From: an uncultured Mediterraneibacter sp.
GTDB lineage: Bacteria; Bacillota; Clostridia; Lachnospirales; Lachnospiraceae
Reading direction: 5' to 3'
DNA length: 64,000 nt
Assembly: GCA_944381935.1 (NCBI GenBank)
Contig: CALWMN010000007.1
Coordinates: forward strand, 91,308 to 155,307
This document shows positions 15,527-17,028 of the stretch, piece by piece (the first letter of the stretch is position 1; each line of letters starts with the position of its first letter). The notes beneath the pieces are model-generated. The model was not told the origin of the DNA. It saw nothing but the letters and a program-made list of their open reading frames with translations, and did not search any database. The translations under genes were made by a program, and so were the position numbers.

Positions 15527-16247
15527 ATGGCTATACACAATAAATCACATAGCAATCATGCATTAATGTCATTGAATAAAATGCGCAGAGATAATAGCAT
15601 GAAGCAAAAAAGTTCAGTTGATTTGCATTGACCCACCGTACAATCTTGAGCTTACCGGGTGGGATATTTATGAAAATTATATCGAGTGGGCGTCAAAGTG
15701 GTTAAGTGAAGCGTACAGGGTTTTGTCAAAAAATGGCAGTATGGTAATCTTTGGGGGGGGATACAGTTCCGGGATGTGAAGTCGGGAGACTTGATTGACA
15801 TTATACAGTATGTCAGGCAGAATACAAAATTCAAACTGATTAATACAATCATTTGGTATTACAAAAATGGGATGTCAGCTCACAGATATTTTGCCAACAG
15901 GCATGAAGAAGCAATTTGGCTGGCAAAATCCAACGAACGTTTGGCAAATCGGAAGATTAAACGGAAACAGTAAAGAACGCGTAGGGCATCCAACACAGAA
16001 ACCGGTTGAAATTATAGATCGTTTTGTAAAATCTCTTTCTTACCCGGGTTCTGTTGTTCTTGATTTTTTTGCCGGAAGCGGCACGGTGGGAAGAGCATGT
16101 ATTGCAGAGGGAAGGCATTGCCTTTTGTGTGATAATGACAAAGCCACGCTTGATTATTTTGACAGGCATATTGAGCAGATGAAAAAGTCAGGGCAAAATA
16201 CAGAATACATACGGATGGACAGCATAGAAGATTTTTTCCAGGGATGA
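15527..16247 (+). pseudogene. Broken beta-class DNA adenine methyltransferase (M of an EcoRI/RsrI-type system)
   Basis: Reading across three frames gives a beta-class (motif IV before motif I) methyltransferase. Motif IV is [16 protein letters not shown] (from about 15626). Then come [38 protein letters not shown] through NTIIWYYKNGMSAHRYFANR, NVWQIGRLNGNSKERVGHP, and motif I VVLDFFAGSGTVGRA. Frameshifts occur just before DPPY, at a run of eight G (15753-15760), and near 15935. The N-terminus may begin at ATG 15527. It would have methylated the site cut by the adjoining EcoRI-like nuclease. The motif order resembles M.RsrI/M.HinfI, not M.EcoRI. It is clearly non-functional as read. Confidence 0.8.
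15753..15760 (+). repeat. Poly-G tract at a methyltransferase frameshift
   Basis: Eight consecutive G after ATCTTT. Six or nine G would keep the reading frame from VIFGG to IQFRDV; eight does not. Such tracts are common sites of slippage. Confidence 0.6.
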
Positions 16248-16272
16248 TGATACCATCTATAAGGAGCACATT

Positions 16273-17028
16273 ATGAAAAAAGGACAATCAAATCGATTGA
16301 CTGAACAGCAAAAAGAAGGACAGGGACCACTTACAATCTTCCATGAAGACGCCATAGTCCATGACAAAGAAGTATCTGATACTTCAACTGTTGTCAGGAA
16401 AAGACTTGAAGATGAATTTCCAATGCTGACTTTCCGATATAGAAAAGAACTGCAAAAAAGGGAAATAAACACAGCGTTACAGAAAATAGATAAATATCTG
16501 GGGTAAACACTTTTTGTCAGTAATGCCAGAATAATTCCTGACGGCGGTATAATCGAAGTGAAAGATGACCTCGGCAACTGGCGGGTAGTTCTCGTTTCCG
16601 AAGCAAAGCACCAGGGGAAAGATATAGAAAATATCAGTGAAATGGCGAATTTTATGCTGGCTGAACTCCATTTCCCGTATGTGCTGTTTTTAGAGGGATC
16701 TAATTTTTTGACTCAGGATGTTACGATCGAAAGACCTGATGGCAGGGAAGTGACATTGACCTATAATGCAGGTAAACTTAACAGGCTTGACAGATTGATT
16801 GCTGCAAATTATGGTATGCCTATAAACACAAATCTGTGTGAAAACAGATTTGTGCAATGCAATGGCGTGAGTATAATGCTCCAGGCCGCCTCGATTTATA
16901 CCAAAGGTGACGGCGGTCACTGGAATGACAGTGATATGATAGAAATTATGCTTGAAGTTTCCCGTACCTCTCTGAAAATGTTAGGAAAAGACATTTTCAG
17001 TCAGCTCAGTAAAAAAGTTAATACATAA
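16273..17028 (+). pseudogene. EcoRI-like restriction endonuclease, inactivated
   Basis: The translation follows EcoRI (277 aa) almost from end to end: KKGQSNRLTEQQ at the start, FRYRKELQKREINTALQKID, the catalytic region IIPDGGIIEVKDD with VVLVSEAKHQGKDI (PD...ExK, EcoRI Asp91/Glu111/Lys113), NFMLAELHFPYVLFLEGSNF, LNRLDRLIAANYGMPIN (with the Arg pair known as 200/203), and SIMLQAASIYTKGDG. Two lesions are visible. One is an in-frame TAA at 16504-16506 at a Gly position. The other is a missing stretch of about 28 residues (84 bp, frame kept) between GKDIENI and SEMANFML, where EcoRI carries recognition residues Asn141/Arg145. The expected target would have been GAATTC. It lies 25 bp downstream of the methyltransferase remnant. 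Confidence 0.92.

Follow-up and report, generated by a model that had tools for sequence, protein, structure and literature searches.

Background

Among the closest known relatives of the system analysed here are EcoRI, encoded on E. coli plasmids, and its isoschizomers. One of them, R.RsrI of Rhodobacter sphaeroides, is described as sharing 50% identity with EcoRI (PMC4081073). EcoRI-like systems also occur in Firmicutes, since LraI of Lactococcus raffinolactis is reported to be an EcoRI isoschizomer whose specificity for GAATTC was established by experiment (PMC5896346). Furthermore, Rusinov et al. 2015 treat the avoidance of recognition sites as a trace of lost restriction-modification systems and argue that it should last well beyond the loss (PMC4687349).

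Here we describe a locus in a stretch of 64,000 nucleotides from the genome of an uncultured Mediterraneibacter sp., which is called the window in the following. With good confidence, we regard this locus as the remnant of a Type II GAATTC-specific system that was acquired horizontally, was active for a long time and died only recently. If this is true, the locus shows a restriction system on its way from life to complete loss, and a single genome holds two records of it, namely the broken genes and the virtual absence of the sequence that they targeted.

Structure of the locus

The plus strand between 15527 and 17028 carries two broken genes that are 25 bp apart (methylase stop at 16247, nuclease start at 16273). 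The features of the locus and of its borders are as follows.

14708-15454: DnaJ-like gene, left neighbour (ORF coordinates)
15455-15526, no strand: left-junction spacer from the stop of the DnaJ-like gene to the methylase start (ORF coordinates)
15527-16247, plus: RsrI-like beta-class adenine methyltransferase gene, remnant split into four pieces with changing frames
15527-15631, plus: N-terminal methylase piece, MAIHNKSH... and then a stop (comparison with relatives)
15611-15624, plus: first internal methylase deletion with frame change, junction approximate as the ancestral sequence is not observed
15618-15779, plus: methylase piece with motif IV (DPPYN), matching M.RsrI residues 62-108 (E 9e-14)
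15753-15760, plus: run of eight G with frame change, for which a sequencing error is also possible
15776-15973, plus: middle methylase piece, matching M.RsrI residues 116-167 (E 4e-17)
15867-16247, plus: C-terminal methylase piece with HPTQKP and DFFAGSG, matching M.RsrI residues 202-291 (E 6e-28)
15925-15936, plus: second internal methylase deletion with frame change, junction approximate; loss of the stretch that corresponds to M.RsrI about 169-201
16273-17028, plus: remnant of an EcoRI-family restriction endonuclease gene (Pfam, PDB, alignment)
16504-16506, plus: in-frame stop TAA inside the nuclease gene, which is no longer a single ORF as in the EcoRI family
16540-16608, plus: catalytic codons D (16540-16542), E (16600-16602) and K (16606-16608), kept
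16627-16635, plus: junction of an in-frame loss of 28 codons (EcoRI residues 121-148), position approximate (alignment, PDB match)
17029-17042, no strand: right junction, 14 bases from the nuclease stop to where the DegV gene ends
17043-17933, minus: DegV gene, right neighbour, convergent

The initial annotation had placed a dead EcoRI-type restriction-modification system here. Lesions in both genes, read from one assembly of one strain, and the family matches bear this out, and the start at the ATG at 15527, the end at 17028 and the spacing of 25 bp were also given correctly.

The downstream gene clearly belongs to the EcoRI family. Its two pieces match Pfam PF02963 with E-values of 4.8e-20 and, for the larger piece, 8.1e-86; the scores of 72.2 and 287.7 bits lie well above the curated cut-off of 22. 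EcoRI chains in the PDB are matched with an E-value of 1.5e-17 before the stop and of 7e-74 after it. In the alignment, all PD...ExK residues (D91, E111 and K113 in EcoRI numbering) are present. Family and intact catalytic residues had thus been recognised rightly, but the nuclease does not follow EcoRI over nearly its full length, as had been assumed, because the stop interrupts it and residues 121-148 are missing. N141, E144, R145 and K148 fall within the missing segment, and they are invariant in all 89 rows, out of 91, that cover those columns, EcoRI included (best 80 of 166 relatives and others). N149, R200 and R203 are retained. We assume that segment 121-148 of EcoRI reads GAATTC and, more specifically, that the recognition roles lie with the segment around 137-149 and with R200 and R203; a literature search on the EcoRI recognition segment found no paper. 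The window nuclease is a broken relative within the EcoRI family and not a working member.

The upstream gene is the remnant of a beta-class adenine methyltransferase, as had been proposed initially. The three larger pieces match N6_N4_Mtase (Pfam) as well as the 319-position Type II methylase profile of PADLOC, and the best solved-structure match of all of them is M.RsrI. The start MAIHNKSH... is common to 28 of 35 relatives, and over the first 30 residues each of six relatives compared agrees with the remnant at 19 to 28 positions. In beta-class adenine methylases motif IV precedes motif I, and the same order is found in the remnant, where DPPY stands before FAGSG; HPTQKP and DFFAGSG are taken by us to be motifs X and I. 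The frame is interrupted by the two deletions and by the frame change in the G run. Between the motifs that flank the first deletion, relatives have 99 bases (11 relatives compared). The stretch around 169-201 that was lost with the second deletion is probably the target-recognition part, judging from the class architecture of beta-class methylases. Thus, both genes appear to have lost the stretch that presumably reads the sequence.

As to the origin of the deletions, some relatives (L005, L006, L033, L041) carry AAAATATA at either end of the nuclease segment, an arrangement required for slippage. Around the first methylase junction, 4-6 bases are common to the two ends in ten of the 11 relatives compared and none in one, while the repeats at the second junction were compared by eye only. 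We therefore suggest slippage between short repeats as the origin of the deletions. For the 26 bases spanning the junction of the nuclease deletion, viral_contigs contains no exact match.

Relatives and gene order

For the comparison of gene order we used 91 loci (L003-L093), namely two from genomes of the family, the best 80 of 166 relatives, eight further ones and one plasmid, so that the tally describes close relatives. A beta-class methylase lies upstream of the EcoRI-family nuclease in 28 of these 91 loci, and 21 of the 28 are from Bacillota according to the record titles. This number includes L040, where another frame sits between methylase and nuclease. A beta-class methylase is located downstream in eight loci and an EcoRI-type methylase downstream in 47, among them the E. 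coli plasmid (L093). Both types are present in two loci, an EcoRI-type methylase upstream in one, and no methylase is visible in five, four of which lie at contig ends (L007, L010, L012, L052) and one of which has a weak match (L004). We had also considered that the beta-class pairing might be rare, and the 28 upstream loci, 21 of them from Bacillota by title, rule this out among these relatives (including the best 80 of 166). The sequence does show a dead EcoRI-type system with a beta-class partner, and the RsrI-type pairing in a Firmicute that the initial annotation had emphasised is real, but it is not unusual.

In L030 (3781-6523) and L069 (3752-6659) the nuclease is located between an RsrI-like methylase upstream and an EcoRI-type methylase downstream. 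This arrangement is possibly a stage in the exchange of one methylase for the other.

In the phylogenetic tree, from which L004 was left out, the window nuclease groups in a set of 28 rows (SH-aLRT 98), and 23 rows of this set, the window included, have an upstream beta-class methylase. To Bacillota systems with an upstream RsrI-like methylase, the identity of the window nuclease reaches 81% over shared columns. Plasmid copies of EcoRI-like systems were found in Staphylococcus and Leuconostoc.

No live copy turned up among sister species, although the initial annotation had envisaged live relatives in sister strains. A profile search for PF02963 gave a match in only one of 58 genomes of the genus, which is the host itself, and in three of 397 genomes of the family, host included. 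The two others are L003, a piece at a contig end, and L004, a weak match with 27% identity.

Insertion site and probable acquisition

The genus provides 30 DegV loci, host included, and the host was compared with the other 29. A DnaJ-like gene lies beside DegV in 14 of them. In 11 of these 14 the gap between the two genes measures 38-264 bp, taken between match ends and not between annotated stops, and the pair is absent; in the other three (L100, L104, L115) there are 753-1176 bp of other content. The remaining 15 loci show no DnaJ-like match within the fetched flank. The G+C content of the gene pair is 39.6% compared to 48.9% for the window, and 7.6% of 1500-bp windows are lower.

Since the flanking genes adjoin without the pair in 11 loci of the genus, we regard the pair as probably acquired. 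The empty flanks, the absence of PF02963 from the 57 other genomes of the genus and the low G+C content together indicate that it was probably inserted, at an intergenic spot that probably varies between species. An EcoRI-family nuclease with its RsrI-like methylase would thus have entered between the DnaJ-like and the DegV gene by horizontal transfer. The content of L100, L104 and L115 raises the possibility that this spot may accept foreign DNA repeatedly.

On the minus strand of the window, 18794-19380 contains a frame that matches the C-terminal part of a phage integrase (18973-19380), followed by a short frame. Located downstream of a TetR-type gene, this is perhaps the remnant of a mobile element. 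L104 has a similar piece (88% identity), also downstream of a TetR-type gene.

Depletion of GAATTC in the host genome

36544-36549, plus: the sole GAATTC site in the 64-kb window

This single site compares with 28.3 ± 5.5 sites in dinucleotide shuffles and with 11.3 sites under a maximal-order Markov model. In the whole host genome (3,040,622 bases) there are 114 GAATTC sites and 724 sites of the reversed control CTTAAG. The resulting density of about 37 per Mb is the second lowest among 58 genomes of the genus; G400 has about 28, G439 about 39 and the next one, G414, about 137 per Mb (sizes of the other genomes rounded). In a sample of 455 kb of the host, eight sites were found instead of 94.8 expected (Poisson 1e-30), whereas the control palindromes CAATTG, AAATTT, TAATTA and GATATC occur at 0.83-1.03 of expectation in the same sample. 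Site density in the sample (18 per Mb) is below that of the entire genome (37 per Mb); extrapolation to the latter gives an expectation of 633 sites and, with 114 found, a ratio of about 0.18. In sibling genomes, based on 77-200 kb each, the ratio of observed to expected sites is 0.90 (G425), 0.85 (G398), 0.62 (G408) and 0.40 (G414).

It had been suggested at the outset that the system recognised GAATTC and that the host may once have been protected at this site. The depletion supports both indirectly. In our preferred explanation the pair would have been active for so long that most GAATTC sites of the host disappeared. The avoidance of sites as a trace of lost systems has been published before, so the depletion in the host would be a new example of a known phenomenon.

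Comparison with other carriers is only suggestive, since raw densities of unrelated genomes with differing composition are involved. Among 30 genomes with EcoRI-type genes (of 80 genome_contigs loci), 21 have fewer than 137 GAATTC sites per Mb, a value that only three of 58 genomes in the genus fall below. The other nine carriers exceed 180 per Mb, which speaks against our explanation, as does the fact that a live plasmid copy could be absent from the host assembly of 54 contigs.

The residual sites are unevenly distributed. The first 170 kb of contig C1 are free of GAATTC, and then seven sites follow within 8.1 kb (C1:170333-178463), as would be expected of DNA from elsewhere. The cluster adjoins a 935-aa frame, in which two N6_N4 methylase matches were found, and a frame that by eye resembles an integrase. 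The whole island (L191 and the start of L192, G000:C1 about 166.9-181.9 kb) also includes a C5-cytosine methylase. L191-L210 were picked for their residual GAATTC sites and were not used for expected counts.

Apart from GAATTC, the host avoids TTCGAA (1 site instead of 29.9 expected), CCATGG (22 instead of 112.9) and CAGCTG (62 instead of 197) in the 455 kb, and the avoidance of TTCGAA surpasses that of GAATTC. The scarcity of these three sites may reflect traces of other restriction systems and is a point against our explanation.

The most serious competitor of our explanation also takes the locus as dead, but attributes the depletion to another GAATTC system, which may be extinct or still present and may lie on a plasmid or belong to a different family, so that the copy in the window would have come late and broken without shaping the genome. 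We consider this unlikely, although it has to be taken seriously. Two other genomes of the genus are depleted as well: G400 has 54 GAATTC sites in 1.9 Mb and a ratio of 0.16 over 77 kb, and G439 has 90 sites in 2.3 Mb and a ratio of 0.43 over 200 kb. Searches of these two assemblies, which are 81-83% complete, found neither a nuclease of the EcoRI family nor a methylase of the EcoRI or RsrI-like type. Depletion and the window locus can be separate. G400 also lacks TTCGAA (0 instead of 7.3 expected), like the host.

Moreover, the host contains further restriction-modification genes. Besides the BstEII-like pair described below, there is a PF02086 methylase at C40:7728-8450, and PF00145 methylases are located at C1:180748-181734 and C11:57390-58487. 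Behind the one on C11 lies an open frame of 286 aa as a candidate nuclease (L225:3390-5386 for the two together). With these methylases on C40, C1 and C11, another GAATTC system is conceivable. On the other hand, the profile search found PF02963 in the host genome only at the window locus, PF13651 (the M.EcoRI type) has no match in the host genome and hence none beside the nuclease, and beyond the remnant the profile of RsrI-like methylases gives only a weak match (E 1e-6). The C1 methylase runs on into a nuclease-like part that appears to be of the HaeIII type by eye.

The BstEII-like pair precedes the window by about 4.7-6.9 kb (G000:C7:84453-86619, L150:4453-6619) and is apparently intact. 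It consists of a 301-aa open frame matching BstEII (PDB 9ibq, E 2.4e-83) and an N6_N4 methylase (G000:C7:85360-86619). The site of BstEII is GGTNACC, which is itself depleted in the host (16 sites instead of 37.7 expected). We rejected this methylase as the cause of the GAATTC depletion because its partner matches BstEII and the site is a different one. Elsewhere in the genus, L223:1483-3591 (G450) encodes a 702-aa fusion of an EcoRI-type adenine methylase (PF13651) and a C5-cytosine methylase (PF00145); G450 has no PF02963 match, and the fusion adjoins an apparently interrupted frame of a competence protein.

Proposed order and recency of inactivation

Once methylation had ceased, an active nuclease would have cut the chromosome of the host, and for this reason the nuclease probably failed first or together with the methylase. 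Either the loss of the recognition segment or the stop would have ended the cutting, and the methylase would then have been free to decay. Among 88 loci (L005-L092, including the best 80 of 166 relatives, some of them draft assemblies), a broken nuclease stands beside an intact EcoRI-type methylase in six (L067, L074, L082, L084, L090, L092), an intact nuclease beside a clearly truncated methylase in one (L022), and both genes are broken in one (L051). L013 and L069, whose beta-class methylases were flagged as broken by the coverage threshold, have long open frames and were not counted.

The inactivation seems to be recent. The window nuclease departs at only one of 58 positions that are invariant in 78 long rows (drawn from the set including the best 80 of 166). 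When each of the 78 rows is left out in turn, the number of departures is 0 in 62 rows, 1 in 12, 2 in two, 4 in one and 7 in one. In the three methylase pieces the departures amount to 0 of 17, 1 of 19 (at the broken edge) and 0 of 34. So few departures at invariant positions suggest little drift since the death of the genes, which fits with an avoidance that is still strong.

According to a review, the killing that follows the loss of a restriction-modification system requires that a substantial number of sites be hit (PMC12707154). It is conceivable, though rather doubtful, that the host first lost most of its GAATTC sites (114 are left in 3 Mb), that the loss of the pair thereby became nearly harmless, and that the genes broke afterwards. 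The avoidance would then also be a cause of the death of the system. If our explanation of the locus is correct, one could ask whether avoidance generally lets a host drop an addictive system, and the locus could be used to time how long the avoidance of a site outlives the enzyme.

Well preserved residues might also mean that a fragment is still functional, for example a nuclease restarted after the stop or a piece of the methylase. The frame is indeed kept across the 28-codon loss, 57 of the 58 invariant positions are conserved, and a 156-aa open frame begins at the GTG at 16558. Nevertheless, this is very unlikely, since the recognition segment kept in nearly all relatives is gone, the methylase is split over shifting frames without its presumed recognition part, and recent death explains the conserved positions equally well. 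Hardly worth considering is an intact pair in the living organism with lesions that are assembly or sequencing errors: one methylase frame change does lie in a run of eight G, a common type of error, and all lesions are read from one assembly, but the remaining ones consist of a clean stop codon and three deletions with continuous junctions, the genome is 99.88% complete with 1.05% contamination, and it is not credible that five independent errors fell within 1.5 kb.

In the recently inactivated system that we favour, neither gene is expected to make a working enzyme today. In practice, DNA carrying GAATTC should no longer be restricted by this system in this strain.

Comparison with known systems

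With RsrI the window locus shares the beta-class methylase, as M.RsrI is the best structural match. Both window genes are broken, and the comparison with RsrI covers its methylase. EcoRI shares the nuclease family and the catalytic residues with the window, and its plasmid copies are 61% identical to the larger nuclease piece. However, EcoRI is followed by a methylase of its own type, whereas in the window a beta-class methylase precedes the nuclease. The Bacillota loci L005, L006, L008 and L016 agree with the window in gene order and methylase type, but both of their genes are intact. LraI is likewise an EcoRI-like system of a Firmicute, and it is active while the window system is broken. Finally, the host resembles the lost systems of Rusinov et al. 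2015 in that the under-representation of a site is proposed to outlast the system. It differs from those cases in that the broken genes can still be seen in the genome that avoids the site.
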